Shown in pieces: positions 9,316 to 20,823 of a DNA stretch of 21,688 nt. The stretch is from a virus, in IMG/VR virus record IMGVR_UViG_3300042878_000203, positions 1 to 21,688 of that record; one strand, written 5' to 3'. Numbering within the stretch: position 1 is the first letter of the stretch; the number at the start of each line of letters is the position of its first letter. Made by a program: the position numbers and the translations under genes. The notes below the pieces were generated by a model. That model worked only from the letters and a program-made list of their open reading frames with translations, was not told the DNA's origin and ran no database searches.

Positions 9316-9455
9316 ACTGTAAAGCCTCCAGCGACAATCAAAATTATTCCTGAAACAATAACACTAATCGGAACACTAAATGTTGCGATGCCACCGACAA
9401 CAAGAATCGCACCAACAATTTCCATCGCTGTAGTTATGTTTTGTTTGTTCATCAT
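9312..9455 (-). CDS. 47-residue two-helix membrane protein between terminase and portal
   Basis: A short frame that exactly bridges the gap between the large terminase and the portal: its ATG overlaps the terminase stop and its TGA overlaps the portal ATG, both as ATGA junctions. After a polar start (MMNKQNITTAMEI) it is almost wholly hydrophobic: VGAILVVGGIATF, a turn with a proline, then ISVIVSGIILIVAGGF. This predicts two short transmembrane helices. The coupling at both ends strongly supports a real gene. Small membrane proteins beside packaging genes occur in some phages, but no function is assigned; a small holin-like role is possible but unsupported. Confidence 0.75.
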   Translation of the reverse strand: MMNKQNITTAMEIVGAILVVGGIATFSVPISVIVSGIILIVAGGFTV

Positions 9456-10972
9456 TTCCAAATGTCCAATACTGAAGGCTGTATAACTGCTGTCGCTCTA
9501 GTTGTTGCACGATCTAACGCCATAACCATAGCAATACAAGCATCTATCTTGCGCCTTGATTTGCCTTTACTTAGTCGCCAGCCTGTATCAGTCATGCGTT
9601 GCGCTGCTGACAAGACTTGATCTGTGAATGTTGGTGAGCCATCGTGCGCAACTTTGTTGTTCACAATCATTTCGTAGGCGTTACCGCACGCAGGTATCAT
9701 TCGTGCAGCAGATTGACCAAACTCAACCATTGGCAAACCGTCATCGCTTAACACTTCAGCACTTCTTTGAAAGTATGCAGGGTCATAAGCGAACTCTTGC
9801 ACCTGATAAGTCTGATGAAGTTCACGCAAATACTTTTCAACATCAGCAACATCAACGCCTTCTAAACTTGGTTGCCAAATCTTTGCACGAACAACAACTT
9901 TTTCGCCTTGTGGTTGAGCGATAACCACCCCGATACTGTCGTGCTTTAATGCCATATCAATCCCAATCCAGACAGGTTCAGTCGTGTTTAGATCAAGATC
10001 GGATACGCATTGTTCCCAACCGCCTACAGGCAGCCACGATTCTTGCGACCTTACCCACTGATTGAGTCGCCAGCGTCTCATTCCCATCTCGGAAGTTTGT
10101 TTAACAGCAACAGCAAGATCATCGGGGTCAAGAAGTTTTTCTGCAAGGTTAGGGTTTGCTATGCGCCACGCTTTGCGGTCATCAATGGCGCAATCTGTTG
10201 GTGCTTCCCACCACCAAAACCCGAAACTGTCATCATCAACTTCGTTTGAAGAAACTTGTTTGCCGTATTGGTATAACTTGCCTGCGAGTGAATCTAAATC
10301 GTAGCCAGCAGTGGTGATACTGATTGTTAATGGTTCTATTCGTGCACCTGAGCCTAAAGTCATTTGATCATAAAGGTCGTGGCTTGACTGTCCCCAGAGT
10401 TCATCAAATAAAACGAGTGATGGATTCAATCCCGCCTGACCTTTGAAGTCTGATGACAGAACACGAAACACAGAACCGAAGCGTGGCATCTCAATAGCAT
10501 CACGATAAATTTTTGATTCAGCATTAAGCAAAGGACTATTAACAATCTGTTGTTTTGCTTCGTTGAAAATGATTCGTGCTTGCTGCCTGTCGTTTGCTAC
10601 TGCGTAAACTTCTGAACCTGATTCGCCTGCAATCATTCCGTAAACACCAACCGCAGACAACATCAAAGACTTGCCCTGCTTGCGAGGCAAACCGATTAGC
10701 GCACGGCGATAACGCAAACGCCCTGTAACATCGTCACGCTCATAAAGCGAACGCAACAACCATTTCTGCCAGTTAGTGAACTGCAACGGCTCACCTGATC
10801 TGAAACCTTTGAGAACATTAAAATAGTTTTCAGCGAAATCAATTATTTCATCGCCATCAGTTGAAACATTTTTGCGTGCCGTATAAAAGGCAGGTTTCCA
10901 TTTATCTGCTGGTTGAACGCTTTTCGGCAATCCGTTTATGTAAGTCGCTGAACTCGTGCTTCGTTGTTTCAC
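9452..10972 (-). CDS. Terminase large subunit (packaging ATPase and nuclease)
   Basis: 506 residues from GTG, which has AGGA four bases before it. ATPase part: Walker A-like GLPRKQGKS (residues 94-102), Walker B LVLFDE (186-191) and coupling motif ITTAG (219-223). Nuclease part: acidic residues in IGIDMALKHD (Asp339), FAYDP (Asp397) and RRKIDACIAM (Asp477), as in the RNase H-like terminase nuclease. The family is the HK97-type Terminase_1. It overlaps the small subunit by 71 bases; a TTG at 10930 would shorten the overlap but has a poor ribosome-binding sequence. It pumps DNA into the prohead through the portal encoded downstream. Confidence 0.95.
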   Translation of the reverse strand: MKQRSTSSATYINGLPKSVQPADKWKPAFYTARKNVSTDGDEIIDFAENYFNVLKGFRSGEPLQFTNWQKWLLRSLYERDDVTGRLRYRRALIGLPRKQGKSLMLSAVGVYGMIAGESGSEVYAVANDRQQARIIFNEAKQQIVNSPLLNAESKIYRDAIEMPRFGSVFRVLSSDFKGQAGLNPSLVLFDELWGQSSHDLYDQMTLGSGARIEPLTISITTAGYDLDSLAGKLYQYGKQVSSNEVDDDSFGFWWWEAPTDCAIDDRKAWRIANPNLAEKLLDPDDLAVAVKQTSEMGMRRWRLNQWVRSQESWLPVGGWEQCVSDLDLNTTEPVWIGIDMALKHDSIGVVIAQPQGEKVVVRAKIWQPSLEGVDVADVEKYLRELHQTYQVQEFAYDPAYFQRSAEVLSDDGLPMVEFGQSAARMIPACGNAYEMIVNNKVAHDGSPTFTDQVLSAAQRMTDTGWRLSKGKSRRKIDACIAMVMALDRATTRATAVIQPSVLDIWK

Positions 10973-11381
10973 CTGTTCCTAACAATCCTCGCTCCGATGG
11001 GCTGAACCCCACTTGACCCAATAGTGTAATGATTTGCCGATCTACTTCACGCAACGCACGCCGTTCACGCCACAAAGTCTGATCATTCTGCAACATAACC
11101 CTTAACCGTGTTCTTTCCTCTGTTGCTTCGCACAACATCAAAACGAGTTCAGTATCCATATTTTGTTTAAGCCAACTCGCACCAGACTGCCAAACCTGAT
11201 TCCACAAGTTCAAACCTTGAACCCCCAACGGTCTAAATGGTTCAGGGATATGCGATGAAGCAAGTGTTGTGATCTCAGCCAGCCTCACAACTTCAGGCAG
11301 TTTGCGCCCTGAAGGATTACCTATACGCCGTTTACGCTCAACAGGTTTACGATTTGAACCGCCTGAACCTTTGCCACCCAT
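10902..11381 (-). CDS. Terminase small subunit, P27-like
   Basis: 159 residues. The basic Gly-rich N-terminus (MGGKGSGGSNRKPVERKRR, then GNPSGRKLP) matches the start of P27-family small terminases. A helical core (LNLWNQVWQSGASWLKQ and MLCEATEERTRLRVML) and the C-terminal FSPSERGLLG segment also fit. It recognises phage DNA and hands it to the large subunit, whose gene overlaps its 3' end. Confidence 0.88.
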   Translation of the reverse strand: MGGKGSGGSNRKPVERKRRIGNPSGRKLPEVVRLAEITTLASSHIPEPFRPLGVQGLNLWNQVWQSGASWLKQNMDTELVLMLCEATEERTRLRVMLQNDQTLWRERRALREVDRQIITLLGQVGFSPSERGLLGTGETTKHEFSDLHKRIAEKRSTSR

Positions 11382-11807: not shown

Positions 11808-11810
11808 CTT

Positions 11811-11835
11811 GTCCTCCTCTTGAACTTTGATTATT
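11811..11835 (-). repeat. 25-base repeated leader with ribosome-binding site (copy 1)
   Basis: This 25-base sequence, containing GTTCAAGAGGAGGAC at its downstream end, is identical to 17574-17550. It runs from the stop of one gene to the ribosome-binding site of the next. The core GTTCAAGAGGAGGAC also occurs in the two promoter-linked leaders near 12280 and 17810. Confidence 0.85.
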
Positions 11836-12264: not shown

Positions 12265-12292
12265 TTTCTAAGTCCTCCTCTTGAACTATCAA
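12258..12292 (-). repeat. 35-base leader duplicate, copy A (with 17791-17825)
   Basis: A stretch of 35 bases is identical to 17825-17791. It covers the 3' arm of a hairpin, the ribosome-binding site and the first seven bases of the coding region. Upstream, the resemblance continues in broken form through the hairpin to the -35 region. Confidence 0.9.
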
Positions 12293-12442: not shown

Positions 12443-12751
12443 TTAGTTTGATGTTATTGGTTTGTTTTGTCTGCGTGAATTGCAAGATCGGTGGGCTGCT
12501 GCCAGTGGGCTGTTGGGGTCAGCAGGGATTAGGTGATCGGCTGTGAATGGGTCGTTAGGTTTCTTTGCTTCGCCACATATCCAGCAAGCAACGGCTGTTT
12601 CTCTTATTTGTTTCGCTCTTCTTTTGTAGTCGCCTTTGTAGTGCGGTCTGTCAGGTTTAGGGTGTTGTTTGTTCCAGAGTGTTTGGCAGTTGGTGCATCG
12701 GGTGGCGTTGCTTGTCAGCCTGCGACAGTTTAGGCAGGGTCTTTGAATCAT
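12443..12751 (-). CDS. HNH endonuclease
   Basis: 102 residues; the ATG overlaps the stop of the glycosyltransferase gene (ATGA). It has two CxxC pairs at the N-terminus (CLNC 6-9, CTNC 19-22), then the HNH core: CWIC (56-59), ADHLIPAD with the catalytic His73, and SPLAAAHRSCNSRR with Cys90 and Asn91. Small HNH proteins near terminase genes often cooperate with the terminase in cleaving packaged DNA at cohesive ends. Its coupling to the modification genes upstream also allows a role with them. Family call is firm; role is inferred. Confidence 0.92.
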   Translation of the reverse strand: MIQRPCLNCRRLTSNATRCTNCQTLWNKQHPKPDRPHYKGDYKRRAKQIRETAVACWICGEAKKPNDPFTADHLIPADPNSPLAAAHRSCNSRRQNKPITSN

Positions 12752-13608
12752 CTTTGCTTGCGGTGTTGTTGGTTAATTATTTTTGGTGTGGTGTTGTTCC
12801 ATTTGATGTGGTGGTGCAGGCGTTTGTTGTTTGTGCCCATTGTTCTTACTGTCACCGATGAAGGGTGCATGATGACGGTATAAAATGATTTGAGGTAAGT
12901 TCCTGATTCTAAATAAGTTTGAGTCATTCCTCCTTTGTTCTTTTGTGTTTGGTCTTGTGTAAGCATTATTGCGGTGGTGGTGAAATATAGTTTGCCTCGT
13001 GAGCCTTCCAGAACATAAGTGTTTACATCTTCGTTGATTCTGCCTACGAATGTTGTTGGGTTGTCTGTTTTGAATAGGAACGAGTTCATCGCTTTGCGTA
13101 GTAAAGGTTTGTTGATTGTTGCACCTTCCAGCCCACCAATGAAGTCGCCTCCTTGAGCCATCGCCACTGTTGATGCGCCCGAGTCATTTAAGAACTTGAT
13201 CATCGCTTGTATCACTGCATCTAAACATTTTGTTTCAATCACTTTAAGTTTGTTGTCTGATGGGTAGCGGTATTGAAACGAGTTGTAGTCATCATCTAAC
13301 TGCATAAAGTATTTGAGCCCTAAGTCTTTTGCTATTTGAAATGATGCGTTTCTTGCGCAAACTATTGTTTGAAGGTTGTTGCTTGTGTCGGCTAGGTCAA
13401 ATGTTTTGCTTACTGCTTTTTTGTCAAACATCAAAACATTTTCATCACCGTAACGCAATCGGTACTGGTCAGCAGTTTCATCTTCGTTATCAATTATAAA
13501 ATAAATGTTTCCTGTGTAACCACATTTTCTAAGAGTTTCATAAGTAGATACATTGTCAGGTCTGCCGTGTGTCAAGATGAAGGCTGCAAAAGTTTTATTC
13601 GGGTTCAT
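12748..13608 (-). CDS. Glycosyltransferase resembling the TET-associated (TAGT) family
   Basis: 286 residues. The N-terminus FILTHGRPDNVSTYETLRKC, followed by GYTGNIYFIIDNED and the DQYRLRYGDENVLMFDKK segment, is the pattern I recall for TET-associated glycosyltransferases of phages. ARNASFQIAKDLGLKYF is followed by MQLDDDYNSF, where the DDD (around residues 123-125) is the probable nucleotide-sugar and metal-binding motif of a GT-A fold. Family members are thought to add sugars to oxidised 5-methylcytosine in phage DNA. The C-terminal 40 residues are basic. It overlaps the ParB-like gene by 14 bases and the HNH gene by 4. No oxygenase is recognisable in the window, so substrate and sugar are open. 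The family call is from memory of motifs. Confidence 0.75.
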   Translation of the reverse strand: MNPNKTFAAFILTHGRPDNVSTYETLRKCGYTGNIYFIIDNEDETADQYRLRYGDENVLMFDKKAVSKTFDLADTSNNLQTIVCARNASFQIAKDLGLKYFMQLDDDYNSFQYRYPSDNKLKVIETKCLDAVIQAMIKFLNDSGASTVAMAQGGDFIGGLEGATINKPLLRKAMNSFLFKTDNPTTFVGRINEDVNTYVLEGSRGKLYFTTTAIMLTQDQTQKNKGGMTQTYLESGTYLKSFYTVIMHPSSVTVRTMGTNNKRLHHHIKWNNTTPKIINQQHRKQR

Positions 13609-14386
13609 TTAGTTCGCTGTCCAATAACTCTTTCATCGTTGTAGCAAACACTGCATAACCGTTCGCTATCGCATCATTTGCATCAATGATCACAAGTGCA
13701 GACGCTTCTATTAGTTTCTGTGTTTGTGGGGTTTGATGTGGATAGTATTCTGCGATTTTTTGATAGTTGAATACTATGTGTCGGGCTGCTGCAAAGATTA
13801 AGAAGTTTGATATTTCTGTGTCGGGTTCTAGTTTTTTGATTTGATCTACGAGTTGATTATATTTTGTGAAGTCAGCCAGTTCGCTTATTTGTGGTTTTTC
13901 GCCAACGATTTCATATTGTGGGGCTTTCAAGGTTTGGGTGTATTTTTGAAACTCATCTTGCAATCTGTTTTCGTTCTCTATGTCTGCCAACAATTCATCT
14001 AAGGCATCGCCATCAAACCCTGTGCCGTCTAATCCTGTTGGGGTTTGTTCTAGGTGTTTCAATAGTTCTGCCAGCCCTGCATCATCGTAAGAGGCTAGGT
14101 CGGTTGTTCTGTTGTCTGCTAACAGGATTCGTGTTGCGTCATCATCATCTTTGCTTTCAATGAAGCCGACAGCGATTTGTGACCAGCCTAAAGATTTTGC
14201 TGCTCGCCAAGTGTGGTTGCCTGCAAGGATTTGGTTTGTTCGCTTATCAACAACTATCGGGCGGTATTGTCCATGTGCTTTTAATGATTCTGAGATTGCG
14301 CCGATGTCGCCTTGACGCACATTCTTGGGGTGCGGTTCAATGCTGTTTACATCTACTGTTGCGAACTCTATTTGTCTCTGTTCCAT
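13595..14386 (-). CDS. ParB-like nuclease-domain protein
   Basis: 263 residues from the ATG at 14386, chosen because AAAGG lies six bases before it; the frame is open further to a TTG inside the previous gene. The N-terminal part is a ParB/sulfiredoxin-type domain: SIEPHPKNVRQGD (about residues 15-27), HGQYRPIVVDKRTNQILAGN, then HTWRAAKSLGW with the conserved GNH-RAA arrangement, and LLADNRTTDLASYD near 90-105. The C-terminal half is helical and not recognised. Such proteins are frequently paired with phage DNA methyltransferases, as here. They may bind or nick DNA or guide the modifying enzymes; activity is not proven. Confidence 0.88.
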   Translation of the reverse strand: MEQRQIEFATVDVNSIEPHPKNVRQGDIGAISESLKAHGQYRPIVVDKRTNQILAGNHTWRAAKSLGWSQIAVGFIESKDDDDATRILLADNRTTDLASYDDAGLAELLKHLEQTPTGLDGTGFDGDALDELLADIENENRLQDEFQKYTQTLKAPQYEIVGEKPQISELADFTKYNQLVDQIKKLEPDTEISNFLIFAAARHIVFNYQKIAEYYPHQTPQTQKLIEASALVIIDANDAIANGYAVFATTMKELLDSELNEPE

Positions 14387-14387
14387 C

Positions 14388-14549
14388 TCAATCCTTTTCA
14401 ATCGTATATTTTGTGAGGCTTAAAACTATGAGCCTGCCTTCAGACGTTACACCTAGCCAAGTTGGTGCATCGCTATCACATAGACAGCCAACAGTTCTTT
14501 TTAGATCAGGTTGAAACGAGTGATTGCAGTTGTGGCATTTGATTTTCAT
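14388..14549 (-). CDS. Zinc-ribbon miniprotein in the modification cassette
   Basis: 53 residues. The ATG overlaps the methyltransferase stop (ATGA) and the stop is two bases before the ParB-like ATG, so it fits the gap exactly. It starts MKIKCHNCNHSFQ and continues to VGCLCDSD, giving a CxxC...CxC zinc-binding pattern, then a short beta-like end (LGVTSEGRLIVLSLTKYTI). It may be a nucleic-acid or protein adaptor; function unknown. Confidence 0.75.
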   Translation of the reverse strand: MKIKCHNCNHSFQPDLKRTVGCLCDSDAPTWLGVTSEGRLIVLSLTKYTIEKD

Positions 14550-15814
14550 TTGTGTTCTGCGTGTCTGATACGTGCGTTAGCAATCTCAACATATTCTGCT
14601 GACAGTTCAACGCCAACAAAATTAAAACCTTCTAACACGGCTGCTTTACCTGTTGAACCTGAACCTGTGAACGGGTCAAGAACTGTGCCGTTCGGTGGTG
14701 TTACCAGTCTGCACAGGTATCGCATTAGGTCTGTTGGTTTGACGGTTGGGTGAAAGTTTTTATCTATCGCAGGTGCATTTGGTTCTTTGCCTTCGCCTAA
14801 GCCTGCTCCGAATCTGTGAACTTCTTTATCTTTCAATCCGTCTAACCCTTCGTTGCGGTCAGTTTTGTTGGCTTTCGCACAATAAAAGAACCTTGCAGCA
14901 GAACCATCGTCATTGAAACCTTGTCTTACATCAGGAAAGGTTGTTGAAGATTCAAACAATGAGTTTCCACCATAAACCTTTATGTTTAAGCCACTTCTTT
15001 GAGTTGCCATACCTTTGCTGTCAGGAAATAGTTGCATAACTTCTTCTGAGCCATCGTGAATAAAGTTCGCAGGAAACCGACCCTGTGAATGAGTGCTTGA
15101 AACACTGACATTCAAAGAACCATCAACCCCACCTTGCAACGTTTGACTTGATGCAGATTGCGTGCCTGTTGCTTCCCATCTATCATTTGTTTTAATCCTT
15201 GTTCCGTCAATGTTGATACCGCCAACACCGTGCGTCAAAACATTGTTGGCAACAGTTCCGTCAAGCGGTTTGCGTGCCATCACAATCGGTTCGTGCGCAG
15301 GTTTCAGTGCTGTTCCCCAACCTTCCCATTGTTTAGCCTCAGCCGTGGTTGGTGCAGTGATATCTCCCATCCGTGCTTCACCAAAAGCACCCGCCCCAAT
15401 AGTGGTTCTTTCCTCTGCGGAAGCGACACCTTTACGGGCGTGTAGTTTCTGTCCAATCACTTCACGCTCTGCACCAGCAGCCTTATCAATCGCCTTACTA
15501 ATGTTCAACGACTTAGGAAACCCCGAACCGTACACCCACATAATCTGATCACGAATCTGAAACCCTGCATCCTCTATCGCAACAGCAAGCCGATGATATG
15601 TGCGTGACCCACCAAACGCCAACAAGTGACCGCCTGCTTTCAACACCCTCAAACACTCAACCCAAACTTCAACATCATAAGCAACCCCAGTTGAATCCCA
15701 ACTCTTACCCATAAACCCGAGTTCATAAGGTGGGTCGGTAACGATGCTGTCAATGCTGTTATCTGGTAAAGATTTTAGAACTTGTCGGCAATCACCGAGC
15801 AAAATATCAAACAT
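14546..15814 (-). CDS. DNA methyltransferase, beta class (DPPY, probably N6-adenine or N4-cytosine)
   Basis: 422 residues. Motif IV is SIVTDPPYELGFMGKSWD (about residues 24-41), with the DPPY catalytic motif. Motif I, DPFTGSGSTG, comes near the C-terminus (about 385-394) and is preceded by HPTVKPTDLMRYLCRLVTPP. This order (IV before I) is the beta class of amino-methyltransferases. The intervening 340 residues hold the target-recognition region, with ARFFYCAKANKTDRNEGL near 310. DPPY usually goes with N6-adenine. It may protect phage DNA from host restriction. It is followed by coupled genes for a zinc ribbon, ParB-like protein, glycosyltransferase and HNH. No restriction enzyme partner is obvious besides HNH. 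Confidence 0.93.
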   Translation of the reverse strand: MFDILLGDCRQVLKSLPDNSIDSIVTDPPYELGFMGKSWDSTGVAYDVEVWVECLRVLKAGGHLLAFGGSRTYHRLAVAIEDAGFQIRDQIMWVYGSGFPKSLNISKAIDKAAGAEREVIGQKLHARKGVASAEERTTIGAGAFGEARMGDITAPTTAEAKQWEGWGTALKPAHEPIVMARKPLDGTVANNVLTHGVGGINIDGTRIKTNDRWEATGTQSASSQTLQGGVDGSLNVSVSSTHSQGRFPANFIHDGSEEVMQLFPDSKGMATQRSGLNIKVYGGNSLFESSTTFPDVRQGFNDDGSAARFFYCAKANKTDRNEGLDGLKDKEVHRFGAGLGEGKEPNAPAIDKNFHPTVKPTDLMRYLCRLVTPPNGTVLDPFTGSGSTGKAAVLEGFNFVGVELSAEYVEIANARIRHAEHK

Positions 15815-17544: not shown

Positions 17545-17549
17545 TTTAA

Positions 17550-17574
17550 GTCCTCCTCTTGAACTTTGATTATT
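17550..17574 (-). repeat. 25-base repeated leader with ribosome-binding site (copy 2)
   Basis: Identical to 11811-11835. As there, it begins at the stop codon of the previous gene and ends just before the next start, so the repeat carries the stop context plus the AGGAGG site. Confidence 0.85.
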
Positions 17575-17797: not shown

Positions 17798-17825
17798 TTT
17801 CTAAGTCCTCCTCTTGAACTATCAA
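17791..17825 (-). repeat. 35-base leader duplicate, copy B (with 12258-12292)
   Basis: Identical over 35 bases to the leader of the gene at 12264, extending seven bases into the coding region. Both copies lie directly downstream of similar promoters. Confidence 0.9.
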
Positions 17826-20553: not shown

Positions 20554-20823
20554 TCATCTCACCCTGTGCCTCTCATCTCTGATCACACGCCGTTCGGCAG
20601 GTGTCTTGCCACCATACATACCCCACTTGTCATCGGTATCAGGAAACGCCAAAACAAGTTCCAAACATTGTTCAGTCACAGTACAACGAGCACAAATCTC
20701 TCTCGCATCATTCCAACCAGCATCGGTAATTGCTAACCCGATGCCAGTTGGAGGAAAGAACACAGTGTGTTTGATACCACGACACGCAGCAGCCTCTCGC
20801 CAATGATCACGCTTTTCAATCAT
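20554..20823 (-). CDS. WhiB-family transcription factor
   Basis: 89 residues; TAATG overlap with the annealing-protein gene. The four cysteines of the iron-sulfur cluster are present: Cys14 (AAACRG), Cys44, Cys47 and Cys53 (ICARCTVTEQC). The turn WGMYGGKTPAERR (67-79) is the family's G-GG-ER signature, followed by a basic C-terminus (RDERHRVR). WhiB proteins bind the primary sigma factor and adjust promoter use; phage copies can block or redirect host WhiB functions. It is the best host marker in the window. Confidence 0.95.
   Translation of the reverse strand: MIEKRDHWREAAACRGIKHTVFFPPTGIGLAITDAGWNDAREICARCTVTEQCLELVLAFPDTDDKWGMYGGKTPAERRVIRDERHRVR

Follow-up and report, generated by a model that had tools for sequence, protein, structure and literature searches.

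The window analysed here, a linear virus record of IMG/VR (IMGVR_UViG_3300042878_000203) of 21,688 bases, is a fragment of a genome of uncertain completeness. On its minus strand lies a gene for a glycosyltransferase of the TAGT family, overlapped at its start by the gene for a ParB-like partner protein, in which an N-terminal ParB_N domain is followed by a C-terminal domain named here the partner domain (PD). A preliminary description of this stretch had presented both genes as parts of one DNA-modification cassette, together with those for an amino-methyltransferase, a zinc-ribbon miniprotein and an HNH protein. All five open reading frames (ORFs) were confirmed at their place, overlapping and on the minus strand, but the last three are missing from most relatives, and the five-gene cassette was rejected because only PD and TAGT recur. 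As judged from the comparison of loci, the conserved unit is the PD-TAGT gene pair. With a probability of about 55%, this pair is read as a two-component enzyme, with PD as its obligate subunit, that would glycosylate the DNA of the phage at a late stage of infection.

Pairing and position of PD and TAGT

The 89 starting records were gathered through TAGT similarity or as named phages, and a ParB-like gene was found with phmmer in 84 of them; its end almost always lay inside or next to the beginning of the TAGT gene. The use of PD alone as a query gave 121 loci, the best 80 of at least 588 viral loci and 41 loci from bacterial genomes, and TAGT was present on the same strand in every one. PD and TAGT were spaced from −206 to +19 nucleotides (nt) in 117 of these; for the other four, 407–954 nt lay between the best-scoring ORFs. 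In a non-redundant set of 139 loci at 80% identity, PD (132 loci) and TAGT (139 loci) formed the only recurrent pair, with terminase genes as the next commonest neighbours. The pairing is obligate and there is no universal third gene: PD and TAGT were the only two protein families common to ten large phage or virus genomes with very different hosts (Nocardia NTR1, Lactobacillus jlb1 and phiLdb, Rac-like EcoS-683R6, archaeal HHTV-2 and five metagenomic ones), and a hidden third enzyme common to all was not found in these ten. Fusions of PD with TAGT were not seen among the PD proteins examined.

The terminase large subunit was encoded one to six genes downstream of the pair in at least 56 of the 102 loci with room for it, and upstream in none. 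The terminases beside the pair fall in several PHROG families, so this position is kept across differing phages; a location upstream of the terminase fits late expression. Directly upstream of the terminase of Rac-like prophages, an intact pair was present in 887 of 5,426 complete Escherichia coli genomes (about one sixth), where intact means that the 1,717-base query was covered to 80% or more and includes some copies flagged as incomplete genes. The E. coli annotations read ynaK for the first gene and ‘GREB1-related protein’ or hypothetical for the second. In E. coli K-12 NEB 5-alpha (L241, 3001–3264), ynaK of the Rac prophage is a 5′ remnant of a ParB_N-PD gene with ydaY next to it, and PD, TAGT and the terminase are gone.

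Altered copies were also observed in phages of Lactobacillus delbrueckii. In phage phiLdb (L085, 836–1713) TAGT is split over two ORFs, and in phage Ld17 (L088, 75–833) PD is absent and TAGT has lost an internal part and is disrupted at its C-terminus, so that the pair appears to be decaying within one phage genus. Another record (L074, 8264–10879) contains one ParB_N-PD gene, followed by two tandem TAGT copies and a radical SAM protein.

Properties of the two proteins

The 286-residue protein was retained in the family to which it had been assigned, scoring 138.7 bits against PF20691 (cut-off 27.5, E = 3.2e-40, model positions 3–205 of 205) and matching phrog_842 of the PHROGs (E = 4e-67). 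Its AlphaFold2 model, built from 41 homologues (predicted local distance difference test, pLDDT, 86.6; predicted template modelling score, pTM, 0.87), indicates a GT-A fold with an acidic donor-binding motif. The best Foldseek matches of this model were the GT2/GT-A enzymes TarP, chondroitin polymerase, AvpGT and SpsA; a sequence search of the PDB gave nothing significant. Next to the DDD and NED motifs (Table 1), of which the latter is probably the region of the catalytic base, K172, Q222 and G227 were also invariant wherever aligned among the 139 non-redundant homologues. By this conservation TAGT is an enzyme under strong selection, with its catalytic residues intact.

Invariant residues of PD in the alignment are Y154, P161, Y163, F200, L201, R207, H208, A217, Y220, E232, D240, A244 and G248. 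The partner protein was modelled by AlphaFold2 with a pLDDT of 88.1, PD being predicted as a helical domain. Confidence was lower in parts of the N-terminal Y-P-Y segment and of the LVIID region, both of them conserved, as would be seen if these stretches folded upon a partner. PD matched no Pfam or NCBIfam family above cut-off: the best sub-threshold hit was PF23887 (Phage L5 gene 47-like, 17.9 bits versus 27) and NCBIfam gave nothing useful. A fold search returned no PD-specific PDB match among its 50 best matches.

Many partner proteins are only 126–166 amino acids long and consist of PD without ParB_N. The ParB domain was rejected as the obligate partner, being absent from 59 PD proteins (it precedes PD in 74) and repeatedly exchanged: its presence and absence on the TAGT tree take 11 changes, of which at least four are forced by well-supported branches. 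In a set of 59 loci that do have ParB_N, distances of PD correlated with those of TAGT at r = 0.38, and those of ParB_N at r = 0.11. The ParB-like protein had been proposed as a targeting factor; it does contain the key partner of TAGT, but the conserved part is the C-terminal PD and not the ParB domain. An identity as ParB partition protein was rejected as well, as the box in the window reads GNHT instead of the canonical GERR, HTH_ParB gave no match in Pfam and the C-terminal part is PD. The fold of ParB_N resembles Noc/ParB, the serine kinase SerK and sulfiredoxin, and also the ParB domains of phage DNA methylases (phrog_498, and the Vincenzo DNA methylase in the fold search).

Target and acceptor

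In the proposed mechanism TAGT, the catalytic GT-A subunit, and PD, a small obligate subunit, both made from overlapping genes, would use a nucleotide-sugar as donor and place its sugar on the DNA of the phage at a late stage of infection, while packaging is under way or immediately before it. The sugar would probably protect the DNA from host nucleases. DNA is suggested as the target by the family precedent of phage T6 (PMC13216743, PMC13390438), by the ParB_N domains and by the packaging context; in PMC13216743, TAGT of T6 is described as glucosylating DNA. ParB_N, where present, might act as an exchangeable DNA-recruitment module. It is similar to the ParB-like domains known on phage DNA methyltransferases, but is here joined to PD instead and is dispensable.

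The beta-glucosyl-HMC-alpha-glucosyltransferase of T2 and T6 shares with the present enzymes PF20691, a GT-A fold, phage origin and DNA as a plausible acceptor. The T6 enzyme adds a second sugar onto glucosyl-hydroxymethylcytosine, as stated in PMC13216743, a substrate that PD-TAGT phages have no known route to make. It adjoins the deoxycytidine monophosphate (dCMP) hydroxymethylase, scores 37 bits against PF20691 (138.7 for the protein of the window) and was missed by the profile of the PD-linked group, and T6 is without PD. By these differences in gene neighbour, score, profile and partner, the T6 and PD-linked TAGT form separate branches with different genetic partners. The same source also lists 288 of 753 phages with a solitary TAGT, without alpha-GT or beta-GT as here, the function of which is yet to be defined. 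These phages very likely overlap with the PD-TAGT group. PD gives them a defining partner, with the known hydroxyl-making enzymes mostly missing; PD, its near-universal pairing and the position upstream of the terminase are additions to that survey, the accessible part of which does not report the partner. A literature search found no report of the partner domain; its coverage was incomplete, and an earlier description is possible.

Enzymes that could make the acceptor were sought in 48 records that contain the module, whole or as a remnant (49 including T6). Thymidylate-synthase-type enzymes were found in one of the 48 relatives, a 191-kb Vibrio phage, in a search that covered the relatives and not the window and in which the T6 control was positive. 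A C5-methyltransferase was likewise found in one of the 48 and not in the record of the window, with positive control genomes. A search for Tet_JBP, without a positive control, gave no match in 58 records, the 57 relatives included, nor in the window. The preliminary description had seen neither oxygenase nor C5-methyltransferase in the window, and the route from 5-methylcytosine through TET to a sugar indeed fits poorly; with the relatives, what might have been an artefact of a short stretch becomes a pattern. The absence within the window alone proves little, because the record is a fragment and no positive control backed the Tet_JBP search; the stronger evidence on missing acceptor-making enzymes is that of the relatives. 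TAGT systems associated with TET/JBP, composed of a C5-methyltransferase, TET and a glycosyltransferase, have the glycosyltransferase family in common with the PD-TAGT pair, in whose records TET was undetected and a C5-methyltransferase nearly absent.

Since C5-methyltransferases and thymidylate-synthase-type enzymes are nearly absent and TET was undetected, the acceptor would not come from known phage routes. It would be other than a 5-hydroxymethyl group from TET/JBP or from the hydroxymethylases of dCMP or deoxyuridine monophosphate (dUMP), and could be a canonical base, another group of normal DNA, a group prepared by PD, or a DNA end. A bolder version, in which PD-TAGT would be self-sufficient and place the sugar directly on a canonical base, with no methylated, hydroxymethylated or hydroxylated precursor from another phage enzyme, across phages and prophages of many bacterial phyla and of archaea, is offered as a tentative proposal. 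In the Com-Mom system of phage Mu and in DpdA-DpdB, a small or ParB-like partner accompanies a DNA-modifying enzyme, and normal DNA is modified without precursor nucleotides. Their likeness to PD-TAGT is one of analogy only.

Several observations weigh against a PD-dependent DNA glycosyltransferase. Distances of PD and TAGT are modestly correlated, at a level little higher than the one given by a terminase family (0.45 versus 0.36, in the subset with that family). In the metagenomic contig G037, a fragment, TAGT is intact but PD was not detected; in this contig (L076, 9710–10879) a small helix-turn-helix-like protein precedes TAGT in the place of PD. It is the sole intact exception seen, the remaining apparent gaps being contig ends or a split PD. 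The viral records are mostly fragments, and the TET negative is weaker than the other two, because no control genome matched. The DNA target is itself made uncertain by GREB1, a relative that was reported to O-GlcNAcylate a protein (Shin et al. 2021, as cited in PMC12645433) and that lends its name to the E. coli TAGT in RefSeq.

GREB1 leads to the main rival explanation, which is rather doubtful in our estimate: that the pair glycosylates a protein, which could be PD itself or a protein of the capsid, of packaging or of the host. The packaging-gene neighbourhood would suit a virion protein, and the invariant Y154 and Y163 in the N-terminal segment of PD, located within or next to a part of the model with low confidence, are compatible with it. 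The characterised phage TAGT, that of T6, works on DNA, however, the partner has repeatedly been joined to a ParB_N like those carried by DNA methyltransferases, and no conserved structural gene accompanies the pair, as terminase and portal families vary. A protein target, if true, would mean a new phage protein-glycosylation system; a DNA target would mean a new chemistry of DNA hypermodification, likely serving counter-defence.

It is improbable that the pair acts not on a base but on DNA ends or on the sugar-phosphate chain, such as a 3′ hydroxyl at a packaging site. Its place upstream of the terminase would agree with this, as would the presence among the closest solved folds of AvpGT, a bacterial enzyme reported to glucosylate a nucleoside 3′-OH (PMC11959488), but the fold match is generic for GT-A enzymes, with a template modelling score of about 0.5. 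Lower still stands the classical route, in which a C5-methyltransferase with TET/JBP, or a dCMP/dUMP hydroxymethylase, lies elsewhere in the genome and TAGT acts on a hydroxymethyl-pyrimidine. The window being a fragment leaves room for such genes, the Pfam family name refers to TET association and the T-even TAGTs are encoded beside dCMP hydroxymethylase. The complete small genomes of phiLdb, jlb1, HHTV-2 and NTR1 nevertheless contain the pair with no C5-methyltransferase or thymidylate-synthase homologue, TET also being undetected in that search without a positive control, and the ten large genomes share PD and TAGT as their sole common families. That the adjacent DPPY methyltransferase makes the acceptor, for example N6-methyladenine that is then oxidised and glycosylated, is very improbable: the genes overlap in the window and in the close relatives L002 and L006, but N6_N4_Mtase occurs in just six of the 48 PD-TAGT records and an oxygenase was not found.

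Lactobacillus phages c5, with the pair intact, and Ld17, with its natural loss, archaeal HHTV-2 and the Rac-like prophages of E. coli are natural test objects for the proposed DNA-glycosylating PD-TAGT enzyme.

Genes of the window and optional neighbours

Table 1. Coordinates of the module, its domains and motifs, and the genes around it in the window.
Feature	Position	Strand	Basis
Beta-class DPPY DNA methyltransferase, 422 amino acids, accessory	14546..15814	minus	PF01555 (N6_N4_Mtase), 107.7 bits versus cut-off 26.7
Zinc-ribbon miniprotein, 53 amino acids, accessory	14388..14549	minus	Cys pairs in translation
Partner (‘ParB-like’) protein, 268 amino acids, ParB_N then PD	13595..14401	minus	PF02195; AlphaFold2 model
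ParB_N domain, partner residues 9–94, optional module	14120..14377	minus	PF02195, 38.4 bits versus cut-off 26.3
PD, obligate TAGT-partner domain of ~110 amino acids, about residues 150–255 of partner	13637..13954	minus	Invariant residues; co-occurrence with TAGT
Partner/TAGT gene overlap, 14 nt	13595..13608		Similar overlaps in most loci
TAGT-family GT-A glycosyltransferase, 286 amino acids	12748..13608	minus	PF20691; phrog_842; AlphaFold2 model
DDD metal/nucleotide-sugar motif, TAGT residues 105–107	13288..13296	minus	D106 and D107 in 139/139 non-redundant homologues
NED motif, TAGT residues 192–194	13027..13035	minus	N192 and D194 in 138/138; E193 is E/D in 137/138
Small HNH-like protein, 102 amino acids, accessory	12443..12751	minus	phrog_338
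Terminase small subunit, downstream of module	10902..11381	minus	phrog_83, E = 8e-8
Terminase large subunit, downstream of module	9452..10972	minus	phrog_9, E = 2e-113

The five ORFs from the methyltransferase to the HNH protein overlap successively by 4–14 nt, and the portal, protease and major capsid genes follow downstream of the module along with both terminase subunits. The profiles for TAGT, ParB_N and N6_N4_Mtase each exceeded their curated Pfam cut-off. In the methyltransferase, which carries the amino-methylation motif ascribed to it in the preliminary description, DPPY is located at residue 27 and DPFTGSGST at residue 380; motif IV thus precedes motif I, the order of the beta class. 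The HNH protein remained below the Pfam cut-off (14.8 bits, cut-off 21.4) and matched phrog_338 ‘HNH endonuclease’ (E = 1.3e-5). No match was obtained for the zinc-ribbon miniprotein in Pfam and PHROG searches, and NCBIfam matches were sub-threshold only. Homologues of the zinc ribbon were present in eight of the first 89 records and the family of the HNH protein beside TAGT in six of 139 loci. With the methyltransferase, found in six of 48 PD-TAGT records, these two genes count as optional companions of the pair in the window.

In a minority of loci, as single or few cases, genes related to sugars lie near the pair (such as UDP-galactopyranose mutase, an NAD-dependent epimerase, a GT4-type glycosyltransferase, radical SAM proteins and small methyltransferases), which would be expected if the sugar or its donor varied.

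A phage-encoded WhiB transcription factor was found on the minus strand at 20554–20823 (PF02467, 57.8 bits); this gene and the near relatives suggest an actinobacterial host for the virus of the window. A 19-nt element, AGTTCAAGAGGAGGACTTA, is present on the minus strand in exact form at 12269–12287, 17547–17565 and 17802–17820, and with three mismatches at 11808–11826. It includes AGGAGG, similar to a ribosome-binding site, and sits just ahead of four gene starts, none being expected from shuffles; it resembles the start-associated sequences of some mycobacteriophages.

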